Shown here: piece by piece, positions 915 to 14,102 of the stretch
Numbering within the stretch: position 1 is the first letter of the stretch
How the letters are laid out: the number at the start of each line of letters is the position of its first letter
The notes under the pieces: model-generated
The model's input: only the letters and a program-made list of their open reading frames with translations
Databases searched by the model: none
What the model was told of the DNA's origin: nothing
Origin: Gammaproteobacteria bacterium
GTDB lineage: Bacteria > Pseudomonadota > Gammaproteobacteria > Steroidobacterales > Steroidobacteraceae
Length of the DNA: 38,758 nucleotides
Reading direction: 5' to 3'
Assembly (NCBI GenBank): GCA_027365225.1
Contig: DAHXNV010000017.1
Location: forward strand, 1 to 38,758
Position numbers and translations under genes: made by a program

Positions 915-1274
915 TCAGGCGACGCGGTGCATCCGGAACAGAATCATGCCGCGGGTGACCCGATAGACGAACCACAGCCACACGGGTACGAATACCAGCA
1001 GGCCGAATCCGAACGGCACGCAGAACCCGGCGAGAATCGACCACACGAGAAACAGGAAGGCCGTGCGTAGACGCCATTGGCGATGGCTCTGCAGAACCGC
1101 ATCGCGCCACGCCGCGGCATCCTTGCGCGTGTCGCCATAAACCTGATACCAGATGCTGAAGACGAACAGCACCGCGCCGAGCGCCAGCGCCGCATAGGCG
1201 CGCCACGACCGGCCTGTATCCAGCGCCACGGATGGCGCCGCGACACAACCTTCGGCGCCAAGGGCGTCCATCAT
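915..1274 (-). CDS. Three-helix membrane protein, last gene of the pet operon
   Basis: The 119-residue product has three predicted membrane segments (about residues 25-45, 68-86 and 89-106) and little else. The second half, starting SHRQWRLRTAFLFLVWS and ending VYRVTRGMILF, resembles small uncharacterised DUF4870-like/COG3671-type membrane proteins that share a WQxRTF...YRxxRG pattern. That resemblance comes from memory and is only suggestive. The start ATG at 1274 overlaps the petC stop in an ATGA arrangement, so the two genes are very probably translationally coupled. Position and topology suggest an accessory or assembly role for the bc1 complex, but no function can be assigned. Confidence 0.7.
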   Translation of the reverse strand: MMDALGAEGCVAAPSVALDTGRSWRAYAALALGAVLFVFSIWYQVYGDTRKDAAAWRDAVLQSHRQWRLRTAFLFLVWSILAGFCVPFGFGLLVFVPVWLWFVYRVTRGMILFRMHRVA

Positions 1275-2086
1275 TTCCCGACCTTCCACCACCGTTCCTC
1301 GCTGGTGATGACGCCTCGCCAATAGAGTCTGTATATCAGGTAGGTCAGCACCGACAGCAGCACGAACAGGCCGATGATCCACGGTCCGAGGCGCGCGCGT
1401 TCCTGCTCGTGCGAATGCGCCACGGCATAGAGAAACGTCACGATGTCGCGCGCCGTGCGATCAAACTGCGCCGGCGTCATGCTGCCTTTGGTCAGCGGCT
1501 CGACGCCAATGGCTACCCTGGCCGGGCTGCCGTAGCGCAGGCCCTCGATCATCACCGGCTTTTGCAGGCCCTGCAGCGGTGCGAACACGTCGGGCATCGC
1601 CACGTTGTTGAAGACGACGTTGTTCACCCCGTTCGGGCGCGATGGATCCACGTAAAATGAAGTCAGGTAGGTGTACAGCCACGCCGGCGAGTGACGCCGC
1701 GCAATATACGTCAGGTCCGGCGGCAGCATCTTGACGAACGCGTCAATCACCGAGGACGGCATGCTCGAGGTGATGACGTCGTGATAATGATGACCGTTGG
1801 TCCCTATGATCTCCTTGAAGCGGGCCTCGCTCATGCCCAGCATCGCGGGCAGGGAGCTGTAGCGGGTGCCTTGCAGGGAATGACAGGCCGTACACATGTG
1901 CAGCGTGTACAGCGCCCCATTGCGCAGCGCCGCCTTGTCCTGCAAGTTGATCGTTATCGGTTTCAGCGGCGGCTCGGTCGTGGCCACCGAGGCCCATGCA
2001 GCGGCGGCGCTGAATGAGGCCAGGAGCCCTGCGGTCAGCATGAGCGCAATGGGGTGCCTTCTGAGCGGCGAATTTTGCTTCGTCAT
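1271..2086 (-). CDS. petC: Cytochrome c1 of the bc1 complex
   Basis: PetC is the membrane-anchored c-type subunit that accepts electrons from the Rieske protein and passes them to a periplasmic carrier. The 271-residue protein has a signal sequence (residues 10-31), the haem site C65-T-A-C68-H69, the c1 signature PPDLTYIAR near 122-130, LYTYLTSFYVDPSRPNGVNN at 137-156, the NVAMPDVF block with probable Met ligand M164, and one C-terminal membrane anchor (234-253). I chose the ATG at 2086 because a purine-rich site (GCAGGAAC) lies about 8 bases upstream and the signal peptide follows directly. An upstream in-frame start at 2149 gives an unneeded 21-residue extension. It lies 84 bases downstream of petB and overlaps the next gene. 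Confidence 0.95.
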   Translation of the reverse strand: MTKQNSPLRRHPIALMLTAGLLASFSAAAAWASVATTEPPLKPITINLQDKAALRNGALYTLHMCTACHSLQGTRYSSLPAMLGMSEARFKEIIGTNGHHYHDVITSSMPSSVIDAFVKMLPPDLTYIARRHSPAWLYTYLTSFYVDPSRPNGVNNVVFNNVAMPDVFAPLQGLQKPVMIEGLRYGSPARVAIGVEPLTKGSMTPAQFDRTARDIVTFLYAVAHSHEQERARLGPWIIGLFVLLSVLTYLIYRLYWRGVITSEERWWKVGK

Positions 2087-2170: not shown

Positions 2171-3604
2171 TCAGTGGAGAATGCCGCCGGCCGTGAGCCG
2201 TTCCGGAAGCTTCGCCGCATCATGCGTCAAGGCCGGGAAGAGAATTGCAAGTCCGAACAGCAGCAGCGCGTACAGCGCCGGAATCCAGTCGGTCTGTAAC
2301 ATCAGGCCCCAGCTGTGGGCGTGAATGGAATACATCCACACGTCGACCAGCCACACCAGCGCTTCGGCCGCGACCAGCCAGATTATCCTGGTGCGAATGG
2401 GTCGCTCGCGATTGAAGAACGGCAGCGCGAGGAAAGTCATGTAGAACACTTCGGTGACGTGCAGCCCGTACACCATGTTGTGCTCGGTCGCGAGGCCATG
2501 GGCTATGAGGCCGAGCCACAGGAAGGAGAACGCCATCGACAGGATGTTGACCTTGTACAGCACCGATCGATAGCGAATCGAGCGAACGGGATTGCGGTCG
2601 AGAATGGGCAGGCATGCCAGCAGCACGAACGAGCCCGCGAACGCCATGATTCCATAGAGCTTGTCGGGTACGCCGCGCAACATCGCGTAGAACGGCAGGA
2701 AGAACCACAGAGGATGGATGTCCGCGGGAGTGTGCAGGATGTTCGCCGGCGTGTAGTTGAGCTTATCGAGCAGGAAGCCCCAGCCGCTGGGGTTGTAGAA
2801 CACGAACCAGAAGAAGACCACGAAGAAGATGCTTACGGCGAACAGGTCCTTGACCGTGTAATACGGATGAAAGGGAACGGCGTCGCGCGGCCAGCCGGTC
2901 TCGTTGAGGTTATCGTGGATTTCGACGCCGTCGGGATTGTTCGATCCGACGTGATGCAGCGCGATCAGGTGCACCAGAACCAGAGCGAGCAGCAGCAGCG
3001 GCATCAGGAACACGTGAAAGACGAAGAAGCGATTGAGCGTCGGCAGGTCCACCACGAATGAGCCGCGCAGCCAGGTGGCGATCGGCTTGCCGATCACCGG
3101 CACGGCGGTGACGAAATTGGTCACCACGGCCGATCCCCAGTAGGACATCTGGCCCCAGGGCAGCAGATAGCCGAGGAACGCCTCGGCCGCGAGCGCCAGA
3201 TAGATGAAGATTCCGACCAGCCACAGCAGCTCGCGCGGCTTTTTGTACGAGCCGTACATGATGCCGCGATACATGTGCAGGTAGACGAGCACGAAGAACG
3301 CGGATGCTCCGACGATGTGCATGTCGCGAATCAGCCAGCCCCAGTGGGAATCCTGCTGAATGCCGCGCAAGACCGACCAGTAGGCGAGGTGGGGATTCGG
3401 CTGGTAGTGGATCGCGAGGAACAGCCCGGTGGCCAGCTGCATGACCAGGACCAGCAGCGCCAGGGAGCCGAAGATGTACCAGAGATTGAAATTCTTCGGC
3501 GCCGGGTAGCGGCTCACCTGGCTGCGCCACATCGAGGAGATCGGCAGCCTCTCGTCGAACCAGCCGAACACGCCGCGCGCCCACGATCGTATCTTGCTAT
3601 TCAT
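2171..3604 (-). CDS. petB: Cytochrome b of the bc1 complex, with an altered Qo motif
   Basis: PetB holds the two b haems and the quinol-oxidising (Qo) and quinone-reducing (Qi) sites. The 477-residue protein shows the two haem-ligand pairs H96/H110 and H197/H212, YWGSAVVTNF at 155-164, GSNNPDG at 220-226, and the Qi-side YYTVKDL with K252-D253. The Qo-site motif normally reads PEWY followed by FLPFYA. Here it is P298-L299-W300-F301 followed by FLPFYAMLR, encoded by CCT CTG TGG TTC at 2713-2702, so the proton-accepting Glu and the Tyr are both replaced. The protein also extends about 77 residues past the usual end (after FFNRERP), adding two probable membrane helices. All other family landmarks are intact, so it does not look like a decayed gene. 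Confidence 0.95.
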   Translation of the reverse strand: MNSKIRSWARGVFGWFDERLPISSMWRSQVSRYPAPKNFNLWYIFGSLALLVLVMQLATGLFLAIHYQPNPHLAYWSVLRGIQQDSHWGWLIRDMHIVGASAFFVLVYLHMYRGIMYGSYKKPRELLWLVGIFIYLALAAEAFLGYLLPWGQMSYWGSAVVTNFVTAVPVIGKPIATWLRGSFVVDLPTLNRFFVFHVFLMPLLLLALVLVHLIALHHVGSNNPDGVEIHDNLNETGWPRDAVPFHPYYTVKDLFAVSIFFVVFFWFVFYNPSGWGFLLDKLNYTPANILHTPADIHPLWFFLPFYAMLRGVPDKLYGIMAFAGSFVLLACLPILDRNPVRSIRYRSVLYKVNILSMAFSFLWLGLIAHGLATEHNMVYGLHVTEVFYMTFLALPFFNRERPIRTRIIWLVAAEALVWLVDVWMYSIHAHSWGLMLQTDWIPALYALLLFGLAILFPALTHDAAKLPERLTAGGILH

Positions 3605-3692: not shown

Positions 3693-4481
3693 TCAGTGCG
3701 CCGATTTGCCCGCGCGCGCCCCGGGGGCGCCCTGGGGGCTCTTGCCGGCCGACGCATGGCGCGCGATCACCGCCCTGGCATACGCGGCGAAGTCCTTCGG
3801 ACCGATTCCAAGCGAGGTGGCCGGATCGAGCTGGCGCAGATAAGCCGCGAGCGCCGCCTCCTGCTTGGCGTTCAACTTCCGCGCGATCATGTGCATGACA
3901 TGGCCCGGACTGTTGTGGCGCTTGCCGCTTGCGAATTGCTTCAGTTGCGTGACGAGGTAGGCGGCGTGCTGCCCGGCGAGCGCGGGGATCGCCATCGGTC
4001 CGTTACCTTCGCCGCCCAGTTCGTGGCAGGCCGCGCACGAGGGGATGCCCTCGCGGGCCACGCCGTGCTGGTAGATGCTCTTGCCGAGTTCGATCTGCGC
4101 GTGATCGGCGGCCGCTGCCGCCGGGGCATAGGTCCACATCGGCTTCAGCTGCGCGAAATATGCGGCGATGTCCTTCAGGTTCGCGTGATGCTTGGACGGC
4201 AGGATCGTCATGGCCATCGCGCTCATGATGCTGTTCGTTCGGGCGCCGCTGCGGAAGTCCTCCAGCTCCTTGAGGATGTAATTGAACTTCTGTCCGGCCA
4301 GATTCGGGTACACCGAGCTGGCACCGATGCCGTTGCTGCCGTGACAGGCGGCGCAGACCGCGGCCTGTGGCGCGCCGAGCGCCGCGGCGCCCGGCGCAGG
4401 GAGACCGTGATAGTCGCTCTTTGCCTGCGCGAGCGGTACGCCCAGAACAGCGATGATGAGTGCGGCCAAGACGGATTTCAT
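3693..4481 (-). CDS. cycA: Dihaem cytochrome c4-type protein
   Basis: Cytochromes c4 are periplasmic dihaem carriers, usually linking bc1 to a terminal oxidase. The 262-residue product has a signal peptide ending LAQA at residue 20 and two tandem cytochrome c domains with C43-A-A-C46-H47 and C149-A-A-C152-H153. Candidate axial Met residues are in NSIMSAMAM (83-91) and GHVMHM (193-198). A 42-residue Ala/Gly/Lys-rich tail (221-262) follows the second domain. The ATG at 4481 was preferred because the signal peptide starts there and AAGGA lies about 10 bases upstream. An in-frame ATG at 4499 is an alternative. The gene sits between petA and petB, an unusual place, which implies stoichiometric co-expression with the complex. 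Confidence 0.9.
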   Translation of the reverse strand: MKSVLAALIIAVLGVPLAQAKSDYHGLPAPGAAALGAPQAAVCAACHGSNGIGASSVYPNLAGQKFNYILKELEDFRSGARTNSIMSAMAMTILPSKHHANLKDIAAYFAQLKPMWTYAPAAAAADHAQIELGKSIYQHGVAREGIPSCAACHELGGEGNGPMAIPALAGQHAAYLVTQLKQFASGKRHNSPGHVMHMIARKLNAKQEAALAAYLRQLDPATSLGIGPKDFAAYARAVIARHASAGKSPQGAPGARAGKSAH

Positions 4482-4540: not shown

Positions 4541-5221
4541 TCACCAGATGTCCGGCGACCAGTCCTTGTCGAGACCGGCGGCATTGATCTCACCGATGCG
4601 TGCCACGGTGTTGGTCTTCCAGTAATAAGGCGGTATCGGGATGTTGAGCGGCGCCGGTGAGCCCTCCACGACCCGTGCCGAGAAGTCGTACATCGACCCG
4701 TGGCAGGGGCAGTGAAATCCCCCCGGCCACCAGGGCGTTACGGTGTGCGGCGCGGGCCGGTAGGCGGGGATGCATTGCATGTGGGTGCACAGTGCAACCG
4801 CGATGAATATCTCGGGGCGCAACGCACGGTAATTGCCGTTGATGAATTGCGCGGCCGGCTGCTGATTCTGTTTGCTGCGCGGATCTTTCAGGCGCCGCAG
4901 GAGCGAGGGCTCCGAGAGCGTCTGCAGCATCCACGGCTCGCGCTTGAGGATCCAGATGGGTTTTTTCTTCCATTCGGCGAGGATCAATTGCCCCGGTTCC
5001 ATCCGGCTCACATCCACCTCGATGGGGGCGCCCAGAGCCTCGACGGCCTTGCCGGGGTTCATGTTCTCGATCAGCGTATCGGCGAACAATCCCACCGCCC
5101 CGGCGCCAAGCACTCCGGCAGCGGCGATCAAGAAGTTCCGACGGCCCTTGTCCGTCTGCTGCTCGGGTCGGATCGAATCCATGACCACCACTTCTTCTGC
5201 TTGTCGCGTCTCATTTTTCAT
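4541..5221 (-). CDS. petA: Rieske iron-sulfur subunit of the bc1 complex
   Basis: PetA carries the [2Fe-2S] cluster that takes the first electron from quinol. The 226-residue protein has a twin-arginine region (GRRNFLIAAAG, 27-37) running into its single membrane anchor. The cluster-binding boxes are C145-T-H147-M-Q-C150 and C171-P-C173-H174-G-S176. S176 and Y178, the two hydrogen-bonding residues typical of high-potential ubiquinol-type Rieske proteins, are present. The start at 5221 has an AAGG site about 9-10 bases upstream. An internal ATG at 5182 is possible. It is the first gene of the minus-strand pet operon, 59 bases upstream of the cytochrome c4 gene, and diverges from the SDR gene at 5819. 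Confidence 0.95.
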   Translation of the reverse strand: MKNETRQAEEVVVMDSIRPEQQTDKGRRNFLIAAAGVLGAGAVGLFADTLIENMNPGKAVEALGAPIEVDVSRMEPGQLILAEWKKKPIWILKREPWMLQTLSEPSLLRRLKDPRSKQNQQPAAQFINGNYRALRPEIFIAVALCTHMQCIPAYRPAPHTVTPWWPGGFHCPCHGSMYDFSARVVEGSPAPLNIPIPPYYWKTNTVARIGEINAAGLDKDWSPDIW

Positions 5222-5818: not shown

Positions 5819-6655
5819 ATGCGGTTTGCGGCATCGCCATACGTACATCCCACGGGCTGCCCAGTGACTGCCATGCGACATACTGATTGCCCAGTGCCCG
5901 ATTACCACGCATTGCTCGATTACGATGGGCCTGCCGATCTACTCGCGGACCGGGTCATCCTGATCACCGGCGCCGCCCATGGCATTGGGCGCGCGGTGGC
6001 CCTGCGCTATGCGCGCCACGGCGCTCGACTGGTCCTGCTCGACTTGGATCGCGCCGGGCTCGAAGCGCTCTCCGATCAGATCGTCGCGCAAGGCTCGGCC
6101 GAGCCCGTGTTATGCCCCGCTGATTTGTCCGGGATCACCATCGGCGGAGTTCGTGAGATCACCGATCGGCTTGGCGAGCGCTTCGGGCGGCTCGACGGGC
6201 TGCTCAACAATGCCGCCTGGGTAGGGGCTCTGGCGCCTTTCGAGCATTATCCCCCGGCGGCTTGGACCAAGGTGATGAACATCAACCTCGCCGCGCCGTT
6301 CTTCCTCACGCAGTGGTGCATGCCGCTGTTGCGCAAGGCTCCCGATCCGGTGGTGGGATTTTCCCTGCAGCAGGTGAGTCGCGCTTTCTGGGGCGCATTC
6401 GCCATGGCCAAAGCCGGTCAGCAGGCGCTGATCGGGATTCTGGCGGACGAGTATGGCCCCGATAGCGCCCATCCGGTGCGGGTGTTCGGCGTCGATACCG
6501 GCCCGGTGCTCACCCCGGGACGCCGTCAGCACTACCCCGGTGAGGCGGTCGACGCCCATCCGCAACCCGAGCGCGTCACCGGGCCGTACTTATATGCGGT
6601 CGGGCCCGAGGCGAGGGGACACAGCCCGCTGCTGCTCGGCGGCGGTGACGGATGA
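5819..6655 (+). CDS. Short-chain dehydrogenase/reductase-like protein lacking catalytic Ser and Tyr
   Basis: The 278-residue product is a Rossmann-fold SDR closest in pattern to YciK-type proteins. It has the dinucleotide motif T50-G-A-A-H-G-I-G57, the NNAA motif at 130-133 and N154 in MNINLAAPFF. The active-site block reads GFSLQQVSRAFWGAFAMAK. The Lys is kept (K198). The Tyr four residues before it is Phe (F194, codon 6398-6400), and the Ser expected 13 residues before the Tyr is also Phe (F181). It is therefore probably a non-catalytic nucleotide-binding protein, or uses other chemistry. SDR genes of unknown role occur in Acidithiobacillus pet operons (sdrA), which fits this context. The ATG at 5819 is assumed; 5873 is an alternative. 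Confidence 0.85.
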   Translation: MRFAASPYVHPTGCPVTAMRHTDCPVPDYHALLDYDGPADLLADRVILITGAAHGIGRAVALRYARHGARLVLLDLDRAGLEALSDQIVAQGSAEPVLCPADLSGITIGGVREITDRLGERFGRLDGLLNNAAWVGALAPFEHYPPAAWTKVMNINLAAPFFLTQWCMPLLRKAPDPVVGFSLQQVSRAFWGAFAMAKAGQQALIGILADEYGPDSAHPVRVFGVDTGPVLTPGRRQHYPGEAVDAHPQPERVTGPYLYAVGPEARGHSPLLLGGGDG

Positions 6656-8494: not shown

Positions 8495-10684
8495 TCAGCG
8501 CACATTGACGGTGCGAGTTCCCTCGAATTGCATGATGTGGTAGTAGCCTTGCCAGCCGTTGTCGAGGAACGGTGCCGGCAGCGTCATGGTCGGGTCGTGC
8601 AGAAAGCGGATGAAATCGCCCACCAGGGCGCGCGTGCGGCGGATTCCGACCAGCCACTCGCCTCGATACCAGTGCTTCCACTTGCCGTATTCGGCCAGCC
8701 GCTCCATGTGGCGGATCTGCCTGAATAACGGCAGTGTGCCGCGGACCTCGCCAAGCGCGGCGGCCTTCTCGCCGTGACGGTAATCGCGCACCGCGCGCCC
8801 GACGCGGTACAGGATGCGCACGCCGTCGCGATTGATGGCGATCATGGTGAGCATCTCGGCCTGGTAGTACCGTCGGCGCGCGGGGGCGACCAGCGGCTCG
8901 GCCGCAAGTGCCGCTTTCCAGAGCGCCTGCCAGCGTGCCCGCGCGGGGCCGCAGAAGTCGATGTCACGTCGCAGCGCATGGGGCAGCCATTTCGGTCCCA
9001 TGTGGATGAAAAACGGCTTGTGCAACCCGGCGTCGATGATGCGGATCGGCGTCCATTTCGGGGCCTGGCCGTCGAAGAAGTAGTAGGGCGGCTGCACCAT
9101 CGTGCTGAGCAGCAGATGCTGGGTCTGATGAAAGAAGAATTCGTCGCCGTACGATTCGCCGGCGCGCGGGCCGGTGCGCACCGGATCGAACGCGCGGAAA
9201 TACTGCGCGTAGATCCTGGCGAGCGTGGCGGCCGAGCGCGGGCCGAACTGCCGGCTCGCCCAGCGCCGGTAATAACCGGCGGCCCCGCCCGGCGGCACCC
9301 CGCCCCAGGCGACGTCCATGGCCGCTTCGGTGGTCATCGCCACCGGCCGGATGTTGCTCACGTTCAACAGGAAATACGCGGTTGCGTGCGCTTTGATGTA
9401 GCGCCCGAGCTGAGTGTAGATGCGGCTCACCGGAATCATCTCGCTGAGGTGATTGGCGGCGCCGTTGAGCATCGCGACGTGGTAGTAGACGCCTTCCCCG
9501 GGAGCGAGATCCCCCTTGTCCTGGGGGATGCCGTAGCCGCTGTCGGCCCACACCCGAATGACGCCGGGCGGGATCTTGAGATCTCCCGCGCGCTCCAGAT
9601 GCGCACCCTCCTGCCAGAAGTTGGTGACGAACCGGGCATGCGGGTGCACGGCGCGCACGATCTTCATCTGCGCGGCGATCGCCCTGCTGATCAGCATCCC
9701 GAGCCGCGCGTTGTTGCCGCGCACGCTCGGGTCCACCGCCGCGTATGACTCGTCGGACAGTCCGCGCAGGCCGACCTCCCACAAGATCCGCTGGTGTGGT
9801 GCGTATTCGTGCACCGCGTTGCGCCAGGCGCGCTCGAGAATCTTCGGATGCTGGGTGAAGTTGTAAGGTACGTTCGGCGGCCAGCGCGCGACATTCACCC
9901 CGAGGGGTATCGCATGATGCTGCGTGACGATCAAGCCGCGCTCGGCGGCGAGCTTGATGCGCGGATCGTTCGGGAAGATCCACGTGCCCGGGATCACCAT
10001 GTTGCCCTTCAAGCGCAGAATGGTCTCGTAGATCTCGTTCATCACCGCGAGCGAGATGCCGGTGTGCTCGCTCTTGGGCGCCGCAGCCCAGCCCGTGAGC
10101 AGATCCTCGTCGTTGATGAAAAAGCCGCGGTACTTGAACAGCGGGGGCGGGAATATCCGCCGCAGCCCCGCCGGCAACACGATGCGCTGGCGGCGCGGCG
10201 CTCGCGCGCCGGTCCAGTACGACATCGGCTCGACGCCGAGGTAGTCCTGCGAGAACTGATAGATCGCATAGATGGTTCCCAGTACATCCGGTCCGGTCAG
10301 CACGACCGCGCGCGCCGCGGGATTCCATGCGGCCGGCTCGACGGCAATCGCGAAGCTCTCCGGGGCCACGAGCCGGGCCGGGCGCATGGCGCGTGGAATC
10401 TGCGCTTCGGGCCCGATCATGAGCGTGACCGGGCCGGCAGCGCTCGGACGCGTGACGATGCGCGGCCTGACGCCGAACACTCTGCGCAAGTCGTTTTGCA
10501 GGTTCTTTGCCGCCAGTCGCACCGGCAGTGGCTCGCCCGGGCGCTCGAGCAGGGTGACCTGCGCGGTGAGGATCAGCGGCGCTGCGCGCGGCTGCGCCGG
10601 ACAGGCGACGGATACGACGGCCGCGAGCAGCGCTGCGATGCGAGGCAGGACAGCGCGGGCGCCGGCGGGCGGACTTCGGGTCAT
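8495..10684 (-). CDS. Secreted glycoside hydrolase, GH115-like
   Basis: GH115 enzymes are alpha-glucuronidases that remove (4-O-methyl)glucuronic acid from xylan. The 729-residue protein begins with a signal peptide (to about residue 36). It then shows the GH115 order of motifs: VLTGPDVLGTIYAIYQFS (about 128-145), FFINDEDLLTGW (188-199), LRLKGNMVIPGTW (223-235), ITQHHAIPLGV-type region around 253-264, and GLRGLSDES (305-313). The C-terminal accessory domain common in longer members is reduced or missing. The start at 10684 has GGAG about 10 bases upstream. The longer frame from 10762 would bury the signal peptide. No xylan-utilisation genes are nearby, so the true substrate is open. Confidence 0.75.
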   Translation of the reverse strand: MTRSPPAGARAVLPRIAALLAAVVSVACPAQPRAAPLILTAQVTLLERPGEPLPVRLAAKNLQNDLRRVFGVRPRIVTRPSAAGPVTLMIGPEAQIPRAMRPARLVAPESFAIAVEPAAWNPAARAVVLTGPDVLGTIYAIYQFSQDYLGVEPMSYWTGARAPRRQRIVLPAGLRRIFPPPLFKYRGFFINDEDLLTGWAAAPKSEHTGISLAVMNEIYETILRLKGNMVIPGTWIFPNDPRIKLAAERGLIVTQHHAIPLGVNVARWPPNVPYNFTQHPKILERAWRNAVHEYAPHQRILWEVGLRGLSDESYAAVDPSVRGNNARLGMLISRAIAAQMKIVRAVHPHARFVTNFWQEGAHLERAGDLKIPPGVIRVWADSGYGIPQDKGDLAPGEGVYYHVAMLNGAANHLSEMIPVSRIYTQLGRYIKAHATAYFLLNVSNIRPVAMTTEAAMDVAWGGVPPGGAAGYYRRWASRQFGPRSAATLARIYAQYFRAFDPVRTGPRAGESYGDEFFFHQTQHLLLSTMVQPPYYFFDGQAPKWTPIRIIDAGLHKPFFIHMGPKWLPHALRRDIDFCGPARARWQALWKAALAAEPLVAPARRRYYQAEMLTMIAINRDGVRILYRVGRAVRDYRHGEKAAALGEVRGTLPLFRQIRHMERLAEYGKWKHWYRGEWLVGIRRTRALVGDFIRFLHDPTMTLPAPFLDNGWQGYYHIMQFEGTRTVNVR

Positions 10685-10807
10685 GTCTGTCGTATCTCCG
10701 ATCACGCACCGGTTGGACAGCGTGTCCGATCGGACGCGGACCGAGGATGATAGCGCTACCATGCGGGTGCCGCTACCGGACTGCGCAGGCCGTCTGCGAT
10801 CGGGTCA

Positions 10808-13800
10808 CTATTTGAGCTCGAGCTTCAGGCGGATGCGGCCTTTCCAGGGCTGCCCTTCGGTCCGGGTGGTGAGAAACACCCGTTTGACGTCGATGCGGTG
10901 GCCGGCGAGCAGAGCGCGCTCGATGCGCTCGGCGCGGGCCAATCCCAACGCGATGAGCGCCTTGCCCGAAGGGCGAACGGTCGGACGCAACTGTGCGCGC
11001 AGCCAGAGAATCTCGGCCTGCTCATGCATGAGCTTGCGTATTCGCCGCTGCACGCGCGCGCTGGCCGGGAACGAGTTCCCGAGGGCCGGTAGGCTTTCGG
11101 TCGGCAGGGGCAGATGCGCCGGATACACCGGTGGCTTGCCGAGCCGTGCGCGGTAGAGGGCCTCGAACCGGCGCAACCTCTCGGGCAGCGGCAGGGTGAA
11201 GATGCCGGCCGGATGCGGGTGCCGATCGCCCGCCATGACCAGCGTGTCGATTCGGGCATTCTCGATCGCGGCGGCATCCTTGGGGCCGGCCGGCCCCGCG
11301 GGAATGTCGACCTGCAACGCCGGGCGTGCGGCGAGGGCGCGGGCCAGGGCGGACAGGCTCGCCGCCGCTTCGGGCGGCAGCGCGGCCGAGCCCGGAATGA
11401 AATCGACGTGCTGCGCCCGTTGCGCGCCGGGGAACAACTGCCCGGCGAACTTGAAGGGCGCGAGCGCGGCCTTCTCGAGCAGGTGCTCGAGCATCGTCCA
11501 GACGATCGTGGCGATGTGGAAGTTCGGGTCGTTGAGCGAGCCGGTGACCGGCAGATCGATACGGATGACCCCGTTGGAGTTCTTCAGCAGCGCGGTCGCC
11601 AGCCGGATCGGCCATCCCACGCTTTGTTTGCTGGCGCTCTGACCGCCCCACTGCAGCTCGCGGACAATGATCTGGTGATCGGCATGCAGCTCGCGATCGA
11701 CGATGCGGTAGTGGAACCGGGCGGTCAGCTCGCCCTTGGCGATGGCGTAGCCGGCGTACAGGTCGGAGTACGGATCGAAGAGGGGCAGCTGGATGTTTTT
11801 GAACGTGGCGCGGATGTTGGTGTCGCGGCCCAAGCCGTACACGTTGAACTTCCCGGCGATCGTGACGGGCGAGAACCGGTCGATCACCTCGCCGGCAAGC
11901 GCGATGCTCGCCAGCGCATTGGGCGCGCTCGAGAGGTTCACGATCAGTCCGTGCAACCGCCTGATCGGCACGCGGAAGTTCGGCTCGACGGATTCGTCCG
12001 CGAACGTGATCGATCCGTCGACGATGAGCAGGCGGTTCACCCGGGTGTGGAGCCTGGGCCCGGCGGCCTTCGGCGGCGGATGCGCCGCGCGCGGGCGGAC
12101 CGGGCCCGCGGGCAGCAGCGCCGCCAGGTTCCAACTGCGATTCGGCAGGATCGCGATCAGCCCGGTCGGGGCGACCAGGCGTACGAACCGGATGCGCAGC
12201 CGATCGGGCCGATAGCGGATCTTGTGCGCCAGCAACGCCTGCCAGCCGATCAAGGGGCTGCCGTCCTTGCGCTCGAGCAGTTGCAGGTTGTACACGCCCA
12301 CGTTCCCGGTGAAGCGTGTGAGCTTGCCCGCGGCGAACACGGCGGCGCCGGCGGCCCGAAGCGCGCCCGAATGGATCTCAAGCGCCACCGCCGGCGGGAG
12401 ATACGCGCTAAACGGTGCCAGTGGCACGTACGCCATCGCGAGCGTGATCATGCCAGTTCTCGTGGCCGGCACGATGCGGCCGGTCAGCTGCACGGTTCCC
12501 TGCCGATCAATGTGCGCACTCAGGTGGAACGGAACGGCGCGCGACAGATGACCGCTCAGCGAGCGCATCGTGAAGGAGAGCGGCGCAATCTCCAGCCGCA
12601 CCGCCGGCGAGACCGCGAGGTCCAGCACCGGCATCACCATGTCGTTTACGGCAAGGCGATCGAGCGCGACATGCCACTTCCGTGTCTGGGAAGCGGCGGC
12701 CGCGCGAGGCTGCGGGGGTGTGCCGGCCGGCAGCCAGCGGGTTAGATTCAAAGTGCCGTTCTTCTCGCGCGTCACCGGCAGCCGCACTCCGGTGAGGGTG
12801 AGCGAGGCGGCCGCGAGGCGCCGACGGCGCGCATCGAAACGAGCCTGCCGAAGCTGCAGGTGCGCCAGCTCGATCTGCTGGCCGCGCGCCGGGCCGACAC
12901 CCGTCAGGCTCGCGTTGCGCACACTGAGGCGCCCGAGCGAGCCTTGCGCCGCGCCCCCTGCCGCAAGCTGCAGCACACCGCCCTGTGCCGTGGCAGCGCC
13001 GATGTACAGCCGGCCAGGCACGCGCCCGCCGCCGATGGTCAGCCCCCTGGCCGACAGTTGCAGGCCCGAGAGGCCGACCCTCAGGCCTTTGGCGCCATCT
13101 CGAACCGTATAGCCGCCGCGCAGGCTGATGCGGCCGGTGGCGGGCCTCATGGGCAGGCTGCGCGGCAGAAACTCCGCCAGCAGTCGGACGCCGAGGCCTG
13201 TGAGGGCAACCGTGCCGGCCGCGGCGATCGGGGAGATGCCGACCTTGCCCTGCCACAGCAGCCGTGCGCCATCCTGAGCACGCCCCTGGAGGGTGAACCG
13301 TCCCGCGGGAGCGCCCCAGGTGCGAAAGTGCCTCAGGCGCAAGGAGATCGGTGCGACAGTCACGTGCGCCGCCGGCCTGCGGCGCCGATCGGTGAGGTGG
13401 ATCGCACCCTGTTCGAGCGTGAGCTGCTCGATGCGCACGGCAGGTGCCGCGGCGCGGTTGCGGCCCGATGAACTCCAGAGCGCATCGAGATTGATCGAAC
13501 CGTTGCGACGGATGCGCGCATCGAGCACGGGCTGTTCGAGGTCGAGCCGCGTGATCCGATACGCCCGCTCGAATGCCGACAGCGGCGCGACGCCGACGCG
13601 CAGCTCGGCGATGCTCGCGAGCGGCCGGCCACGGGCCGTCAGGCCGATGGCGCGGATCGAGGCGGTGAAGCGGATCGGATCGACCTTGATCGGCCCGAGG
13701 GCGAGCGCCAGACCCGGGTGTGCGGCGGCCCAGCGCATCGCCGCGGAGCGAATCATGCGTGGTGCGAGCACATAACCGGCCCACAGGTAGGCGGCGGCGA

Positions 13801-13870
13801 GCAGCGCAACGGTCCCAAGGCCGATGAGCCATCGCCGCCGGGGCAGGCGGATCGCCATTCGCAAAGGCAT
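10808..13870 (-). CDS. Large AsmA-like envelope protein with DUF748
   Basis: The 1020-residue protein has one N-terminal membrane anchor (about residues 14-36) and then a long, repetitive beta-rich periplasmic region of the AsmA/DUF748 kind. The clearest match is around residues 640-790. It includes FADESVEPNFRVPIRRLHG, SPVTIAGKFNVYGL, HYRIVDRELHADHQIIV, and the conserved GVIRIDLPVTGSLNDPNF stretch. After VDFIPGSAALPPEAA a C-terminal region vaguely like OmpA-linked tails follows. Proteins of this group are thought to affect outer-membrane lipid transport and permeability. The ATG at 13870 has GGAG 9 bases upstream. A GTG at 13885 and an ATG at 13858 are alternatives. It stands alone as a transcription unit. 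Confidence 0.8.
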   Translation of the reverse strand: MPLRMAIRLPRRRWLIGLGTVALLAAAYLWAGYVLAPRMIRSAAMRWAAAHPGLALALGPIKVDPIRFTASIRAIGLTARGRPLASIAELRVGVAPLSAFERAYRITRLDLEQPVLDARIRRNGSINLDALWSSSGRNRAAAPAVRIEQLTLEQGAIHLTDRRRRPAAHVTVAPISLRLRHFRTWGAPAGRFTLQGRAQDGARLLWQGKVGISPIAAAGTVALTGLGVRLLAEFLPRSLPMRPATGRISLRGGYTVRDGAKGLRVGLSGLQLSARGLTIGGGRVPGRLYIGAATAQGGVLQLAAGGAAQGSLGRLSVRNASLTGVGPARGQQIELAHLQLRQARFDARRRRLAAASLTLTGVRLPVTREKNGTLNLTRWLPAGTPPQPRAAAASQTRKWHVALDRLAVNDMVMPVLDLAVSPAVRLEIAPLSFTMRSLSGHLSRAVPFHLSAHIDRQGTVQLTGRIVPATRTGMITLAMAYVPLAPFSAYLPPAVALEIHSGALRAAGAAVFAAGKLTRFTGNVGVYNLQLLERKDGSPLIGWQALLAHKIRYRPDRLRIRFVRLVAPTGLIAILPNRSWNLAALLPAGPVRPRAAHPPPKAAGPRLHTRVNRLLIVDGSITFADESVEPNFRVPIRRLHGLIVNLSSAPNALASIALAGEVIDRFSPVTIAGKFNVYGLGRDTNIRATFKNIQLPLFDPYSDLYAGYAIAKGELTARFHYRIVDRELHADHQIIVRELQWGGQSASKQSVGWPIRLATALLKNSNGVIRIDLPVTGSLNDPNFHIATIVWTMLEHLLEKAALAPFKFAGQLFPGAQRAQHVDFIPGSAALPPEAAASLSALARALAARPALQVDIPAGPAGPKDAAAIENARIDTLVMAGDRHPHPAGIFTLPLPERLRRFEALYRARLGKPPVYPAHLPLPTESLPALGNSFPASARVQRRIRKLMHEQAEILWLRAQLRPTVRPSGKALIALGLARAERIERALLAGHRIDVKRVFLTTRTEGQPWKGRIRLKLELK

Positions 13871-14102
13871 GTAATGTGACTCCACGGCGTCTCGCCCGGC
13901 GCCGCGACCGCCGTGTCCGGGCGATGTAGCGGTCTGTTTCGGGCGGATCGAAGCGAGTCGCGCCGACTAGTCTAATCCGTCCTGTGGCCGGGAACGAGTC
14001 TGGTTAAGGGCGCGCCCTCTCGGGCGGGCGCGATTGCGCGGCCGACACCCCGAGTCGCCCGCTTGCGACGCCCATGCCCGGCGGCTGTTACGATTCGGCG
14101 CA

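Follow-up and report, generated by a model that had tools for sequence, protein, structure and literature searches.

A conserved gammaproteobacterial operon with a PLWF cytochrome b, probably encoding a second bc1 complex

The window analysed here (the whole stretch of 38,758 nucleotides, from a genome of the family Steroidobacteraceae) encodes a cytochrome b whose Qo-site motif reads PLWF. Judged from sequence comparisons, this protein is probably part of a second, functional bc1 complex of a lineage apart from the PVWY bc1 found in the same genus. The complex would couple the quinone pool to a c4 cytochrome of its own, and would release the second quinol proton through Tyr146 and Asp280 or through water.

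The PLWF operon and its conservation

The genes are arranged in the order petA, c4-type cytochrome, petB and petC, with a small membrane protein ORF downstream and a divergent short-chain dehydrogenase (SDR) upstream. Their positions, and those of the sites discussed below, are as follows.

5819..6655, plus strand: SDR, YciK-like, divergent from petA (PF00106)
5242-4541, minus strand: petA, Rieske iron-sulfur protein with a twin-arginine-type leader (TIGR01416 over its cut-off; PF00355, PF10399)
4772..4789, minus strand: Rieske box I, CTHMQC, with Gln at the Gly of PVWY relatives
4685..4711, minus strand: Rieske box II, CPCHGSMYD, with Ser183 and Tyr185 retained
4544-3693, minus strand: dihaem c4-type cytochrome c (PF00034; two CxxCH); the true start is likely the ATG at 4481
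3604-2171, minus strand: petB, cytochrome b, 477 aa (Pfam PF00033, PF13631 and PF00032 over cut-offs)
3167..3169, minus strand: Tyr146, equivalent of R. capsulatus Y147, Tyr in 82/82 aligned rows
2753..2773, minus strand: ef-loop stretch LLDKLNY (278-284), holding D280 and Y284
2702..2713, minus strand: PLWF motif P298-L299-W300-F301, codons CCT CTG TGG TTC, with FLPFYAMLR next
2149-1271, minus strand: petC, cytochrome c1, 292 aa (PF02167; haem motif CTACH at 1894-1880)
915..1382, minus strand: small membrane protein ORF, 3' of petC; the start is likely the ATG at 1274, giving 119 aa

The features of the bc1 family are thus encoded together in the window: a cytochrome b with two haem-His pairs, placed in Cytochrome_B and Cytochrom_B_C (Pfam, over cut-offs), a Rieske protein with both cluster boxes and a cytochrome c1 with its haem motif. 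The small membrane ORF matched no NCBIfam family and no Pfam family above its cut-off, and the best NCBIfam match of the SDR, YciK, remained below its cut-off. A sequence-only reading of this DNA had described PLWF in a cytochrome b that keeps its haem ligands, the Qi-site K252-D253 and the Rieske Ser and Tyr, and had taken the gene to be a living one. The motif and these residues are confirmed, and the view of a living gene is supported. The motif lies in an open 477-codon minus-strand frame, and H96, H110, H197, H217 and K252-D253 are present, as is Y146. The Rieske residues are S183 and Y185 in the 233-aa frame; the earlier numbering (S176/Y178) fits a start seven codons later.

Within the genus, the DNA pattern for PLWF-FLPFY was found in 15 of 58 genomes, the window's own among them. 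All 19 named relatives of this cytochrome b type that we found (L049-L067; 71-100% identical) carry PLWF, and across the 20 aligned genes the codons of Leu299 (CTG/CTC/TTG) and Phe301 (TTC/TTT) vary only synonymously. The median pairwise dN/dS of the cytochrome b was 0.12 (171 pairs from 19 genes, namely the window and 18 named loci, with L063 left out). The PLWF cytochrome b gene is intact and under purifying selection, and this conservation and selection rule out a sequencing error or a dead gene. Degenerating or non-functional bc1 complexes have been reported in acidophilic Acetobacteraceae, where haem and cluster ligands are lost (PMC10715153). That the PLWF complex shares such a fate is hardly credible, as its ligands are kept and its cytochrome b has the low dN/dS given above.

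The operon is conserved as a unit. tblastn searches found all six genes (petA, c4, petB, petC, the small membrane ORF and the SDR) in 19/19 named loci, and the c4-type cytochrome has two CxxCH motifs in each of 21 loci. The SDR lies upstream and divergent in 16 of the 19 named loci and downstream on the same strand in L060, L061 and L064. Beyond the pet cluster, the matches of most window ORFs that had any were confined to the three nearest loci (L049, L050 and L058). Among the window ORFs are a match to glycosyl hydrolase family 115 (8495-10762) and one to DUF748 (10808-13885), both on the minus strand (Pfam); such ORFs lie near the pet cluster in the nearest loci only. Two named relatives are labelled Rhodanobacter sp. 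and Rhodanobacteraceae, and most of the other relatives are MAGs that, judging from their isolate names, presumably come from acid mine drainage sediment. The host of the window is likewise probably a gammaproteobacterium of acid mines. A BioProject for such acid-site genomes is named in PMC9061769; the isolates of the relatives are not named in the part of that source available.

The SDR partner has itself changed at its catalytic site, which is the residue four positions before the Lys. In the window, Phe194 takes the place of the Tyr of YxxxK, and FxxxK is found in 19/19 named loci, while the residue just before the Trp varies between Tyr and Phe. As the catalytic Tyr is missing, a structural role is likelier than an enzymatic one, and the SDR-like protein is likely an accessory of the complex, as far as its sequence can tell.

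Qo motifs in the class and the origins of PLWF

The earlier reading had measured PLWF against PEWY and considered the loss of the Glu remarkable. In a class sample of 185 genomes, the pattern PxW[FY] gave 143 matches in 141 genomes, which were not individually confirmed as cytochrome b; two matches were dropped as chance, one containing a stop and one unlike cytochrome b. The resulting 141 motifs were PVWY (82), PLWY (39), PEWY (11), PLWF (4), PIWY (2), PMWY (1), PSWY (1) and PAWY (1). PLWF is real, but the norm of the class is PVWY or PLWY rather than PEWY; Glu stands in only 11 of 141 motifs, and its loss is not supported as remarkable. Absence of the Glu is normal here, and so is Leu in its place, which is the second commonest residue. 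What is rare in PLWF is the change of Tyr to Phe, seen in 4 of 141 motifs including the window (the others being G575, G431 and G517). The nearest solved cytochrome b (8smr/8snh, 432 bits over residues 13-401) also lacks the Glu. It differs from the window in having the Val and Tyr of PVWY for Leu and Phe, and Glu for Asp at position 276; its organism we take to be Pseudomonas aeruginosa.

A stricter PxWF pattern matched in 7 of 369 class genomes, with PLWF in the window, G575, G431, G517, G728 and G639 and what looks like a chance match in G640. G661 of the same sample escaped this pattern, which called for Phe or Tyr directly after the motif, where G661 has Leu (PLWFL). Such patterns are also blind to motifs of other shapes, for instance the PLFF that G661 has in a split cytochrome b. 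In the window's family, 138 of 150 genomes had a cytochrome b match. Nine matches were of the window's type, the window included (86-100% identical), and all 21 others that were read had PVWY (L010-L030). The Tyr at position 297, a trait of the PEWY/PVWY class, is absent from the window and from 19/19 named relatives, all of which have Phe301.

PLWF as a cytochrome b motif was not found in the literature on motif names and the Qo motif, among the matches listed. According to the abstract of Kao and Hunte (2014), beta- and gammaproteobacteria reportedly have PVWY and acidophiles show distinct patterns, and because of this we do not claim acidophile-specific Qo motifs as new. What may be new is the PLWF operon lineage, the change in its Rieske protein, its inactive SDR partner and its conservation.

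To place the PLWF genes, two maximum-likelihood trees were made. The first contained 82 cytochrome b rows with the motif columns included; the second contained 65 rows with the motif masked, and the long-branch rows L176 and L177 as well as 15 near-copies had been dropped. The second tree grouped the window with 14 named loci of this type, L063, G639 (family f142) and G661 (family f166) in one clade (bootstrap 100, SH-aLRT 99), separate from the PVWY rows. PVWY copies of the genus itself grouped among other PVWY genes of the family, and both trees rule out that the PLWF gene is a recent duplicate of the PVWY gene of the genus.

PLWF probably arose more than once, as judged from these trees. 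It requires three changes on the second tree and two to three on the bootstrap trees, with a single change in 0% of 200; the strongly supported branches alone are compatible with a single origin in the second tree, where they force one, but force two in the first. Family f47 falls among PVWY rows in both trees, which makes more than one origin probable and its own PLWF probably an independent one; family f133 sits on a long branch. In f47, a low-G+C family (L129, L130, L174 and L175; G575 and G431), PLWF is found in a petA-petB-petC operon, where it is the sole cytochrome b found. In f133 (L131 and L132; G517 and G728), the Rieske gene does not precede petB but is encoded on the other strand, in convergent orientation to petB-petC.

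Sites that change with the motif and a possible proton route

We compared 24 cytochrome b rows of the PLWF lineage (f133 included, f47 left out) with 52 PVWY rows. In the core of the protein, the differences that are fixed or nearly so are Y270, D280, Y284, L299 and F301. Y270 occurs in 23/24 lineage rows, against Phe in 47/52 PVWY rows; D280 occurs in 24/24, against Glu in 52/52; and Y284 occurs in 23/24, against Phe in 50/52. By alignment, D280, Y284, L299 and F301 correspond to R. capsulatus positions 276 (H276 there), 280, 295 and 297. The remaining differences listed sit in a C-terminal extension, which at those columns is missing from 50 of the 52 PVWY rows. All lineage rows retain Tyr146 (Y147), Met153 (M154), Asn283 (N279) and the four haem histidines.

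The Rieske protein differs as well. Box I reads CTHxQC in all 21 lineage operons (the 19 named loci, L133 and L183) and in none of 37 PVWY loci, where the residue is Gly in 36 and Ser in 1; this count leaves out 16 loci (15 PVWY, one PPWY) without a Rieske motif in the DNA examined. Box II has Tyr in 21/21 lineage operons, whereas Phe is found in 30/37 PVWY loci. A Tyr in box II raises the potential of the Rieske cluster, and a raised potential may be expected in this lineage. The sequence-only reading had suggested a changed Qo mechanism. The changes in the ef-loop and in the Rieske docking loop fit a retuned Qo site, but they are not tied to the motif in every lineage. In the two f47 rows, PLWF occurs without D280 and Y284, and in the two loci each of f47 and f133 it is accompanied by Gly in Rieske box I. 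This means that the box I Gln marks the operon lineage and not PLWF itself, and that none of these changes is required by PLWF: f47 lacks D280, Y284 and the Rieske Gln, and f133 lacks the Rieske Gln.

In R. capsulatus, removal of both H276 and E295 leaves no proton exit, either single loss is tolerated and Y147 can take over (PMC10583091). Simulations described in PMC12199298 make Y147 the first acceptor of the second proton and find that water wires, redundant with one another and in part running via Y297, lead to the haem bL propionate. The same paper, of 2025, reports that none of 9,993 cytochrome b sequences surveyed has a double change among Y147, E295 and Y297. As its set comprises only sequences relatively near to that of R. 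sphaeroides, the statement does not cover the class studied here. The window cytochrome b has Leu at 295, Phe at 297 and Asp at 276, with Y147 kept (R. capsulatus numbering).

We propose that the Qo site of this complex functions with no protonatable residue at either position 295 or position 297. The first quinol proton would pass to the Rieske histidine, as usual. The second would pass to Tyr146 (Y147) and from there to Asp280 (276) in the ef-loop, or via water to the haem bL propionate. Leu299 and Phe301 would render the haem-bL side of the pocket more hydrophobic, and the Rieske docking loop (CTHxQC, with the box II Tyr kept) has changed within the same lineage. Electrons would pass between the quinone pool and a c4 cytochrome belonging to the complex, beside which the SDR-like protein, its catalytic Tyr missing, would serve as an accessory. 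A change of quinone is a far less probable explanation. Position 295 is said to follow the quinone type, with Glu for ubiquinone and Asp for menaquinone (PMC12199298), which would allow that the complex is adapted to another quinone; the loss of the acid, however, is general in this class, and we consider such an adaptation very unlikely.

Gene content and the direction of electron flow

The earlier suggestion that the complex runs in reverse finds a parallel in the petI operon of Acidithiobacillus ferrooxidans. Induced on iron, this operon combines genes for a c4 cytochrome and an SDR with petABC, and the complex it encodes is modelled as an uphill one (PMC2754497). The PLWF lineage has the same content, a dihaem c4-type cytochrome, an SDR and petABC, in 19/19 named loci. 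The order differs, being cycA-sdrA-petA-petB-petC in petI (PMC2754497) and petA-c4-petB-petC, with the SDR divergent or downstream, in the window lineage. In addition, the SdrA1 of petI is reported with the catalytic Tyr (PMC2754497), unlike the SDR of the window lineage with its Phe. The one petI-ordered locus that we found (in G605) has the Qo motif PPWY and an SDR with YxxxK retained; in the first tree its cytochrome b, on a long branch of unsure placement, is not part of the PLWF clade. As this locus has PPWY, PLWF is not supported as a general signature of petI complexes.

A further likeness is found in G661. Its operon has the order Rieske, c4, cytochrome b and c1, its cytochrome b has PLWF and belongs to the same clade, and its Rieske box I is CTHLQC. 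It differs from the window in the residues after the motif (LTPYY), in a cytochrome b identity of about 53% and in the absence of any match to the SDR or the small membrane ORF in the 20 kb of the locus examined. G661 also carries rusticyanin-like genes and a Cyc2-like gene. Another cluster in this genome (L166, 2932-6229) comprises genes for Rieske, c1, c4 and a split cytochrome b and is separated from a rusticyanin-like gene by some 3 kb or more; the motif PLFF of this cytochrome b means that even the Trp has been replaced.

A second cytochrome b is present in 8 of the 15 PLWF genomes of the genus, which like the other genomes are mostly drafts and in many cases incomplete. Seven of these second copies are full-length and that of G173 is cut by a contig end, and the Qo motif is PVWY in 8/8. 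One further genome (G133) has an N-terminal cytochrome b fragment at a contig end. In the remaining six, no second cytochrome b was found: G000 (66% complete), G165 (80%), G169 (84%), G170 (70%), G139 (96%) and G171 (90%). The window's own genome is 65.6% complete, with the PLWF gene as the only cytochrome b found. A third, short match to the cytochrome b C-terminus (51 bits) was seen in one PLWF genome (G080:C153:6730-6909). Outside the genus, G639 and G661 each hold a PLWF and a PVWY copy. According to PMC12199298, the only residue that replaces the Tyr of position 297 in the set of Kao and Hunte is Phe, noted only in organisms said to hold an extra cytochrome b. In four genomes that are 94-100% complete (G517, G728, G575 and G431), PLWF is the only cytochrome b found, which means that the motif alone does not indicate reverse flow.

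A petA at the usual site seems to be missing next to the PVWY petB-petC pair of the genus (from the ORFs read in L143 and L148). In these two loci a divergent Deg-like protease adjoins petB and an sspA-like gene follows petC. No Rieske motif was found in the locus DNA examined of L142, L144-L147 and L012, and in the family relatives L010, L014 and L030, petA lies upstream of the PVWY petB.

Genes of iron oxidation and carbon fixation were compared between the PLWF and non-PLWF genomes of the genus. RuBisCO-family genes, of a form not resolved, occur in 11/15 PLWF and 25/43 non-PLWF genomes (p 0.37). Cyc2-like porin-cytochromes occur in 10/15 (two of them partial) and 31/43, respectively (p 0.75); this label rests on one CxxCH near the N-terminus, length and a nearby rusticyanin-like gene, as no Pfam or NCBIfam family matched. 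The Cyc2 of Acidithiobacillus is described in PMC10654088 as connecting to a cluster made up mainly of homologues of Rhodanobacteraceae and other groups. Rusticyanin had no match in any of the 15 PLWF genomes of the genus. As rusticyanin, RuBisCO and Cyc2-like genes do not track the operon, it is unsupported as an iron-oxidation marker of the genus. A rusticyanin-like contig is present in G182.

The c4 and SDR genes, shared with petI, and the second PVWY copy in 8/15 genomes make reverse flow plausible, whereas the PPWY of the petI-ordered G605 and the four genomes with PLWF as their sole copy speak against it. We can thus only tentatively suggest, by analogy, that during autotrophic growth electrons move through the complex mainly uphill, from c4 to quinone. 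A dedicated, petI-like uphill complex of acidophilic autotrophs, in which PLWF and CTHxQC adapt the Qo site to quinone reduction, has the same tentative standing. It would account for the combination of c4, SDR and petABC (as in PMC2754497), for the RuBisCO-family and Cyc2-like genes in most PLWF genomes, and for G661, which shares the operon order, has rusticyanin-like and Cyc2-like genes and carries its PLFF split cytochrome b at the distance given above from one of the former. It does not account for the motif of G605, for RuBisCO and Cyc2-like markers that do not track the operon, for the lack of rusticyanin matches in the PLWF genomes of the genus or for PLWF as the sole cytochrome b found in f47 and f133.

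These sole copies, together with the retained catalytic ligands and the frequency of Glu loss and of Leu in the class, would fit an ordinary forward-running bc1 paralogue. PLWF would then be a near-neutral variant of PVWY or PLWY, in an alternative complex III used at low pH or low oxygen. An ordinary paralogue does not readily explain why Phe301 is invariant in 20 genes that have accumulated silent changes, why the ef-loop and Rieske box I changes are linked in the lineage or why the SDR-like gene stays with the operon in 19/19 named loci, and this explanation is somewhat doubtful. Returning to the second, functional bc1 complex proposed here, reverse flow through it is plausible from gene content, by analogy. 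The broadest reading would make PLWF with a CTHxQC Rieske protein the mark of an unnamed class of bc1 in acidophilic autotrophs, with a c4 cytochrome of its own, a high-potential input and reduction of quinone at the Qo site, joined among the window's relatives by a catalytically dead SDR-like partner. We regard this combination as rather unlikely as a whole.

The exit route of the second Qo proton and the residues that prevent short-circuits are an open issue in the field. The PLWF lineage is a natural experiment on this issue, as two of the three residues of the 'YEY' network are replaced, the Rieske loop differs and the gene is strongly selected. If the reading as an unnamed class is true, Qo chemistry without E295 and Y297 would be a natural double variant unseen in the survey of 9,993 sequences. 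If the complex runs uphill, it would show how a bc1 complex can be tuned for reverse flow.
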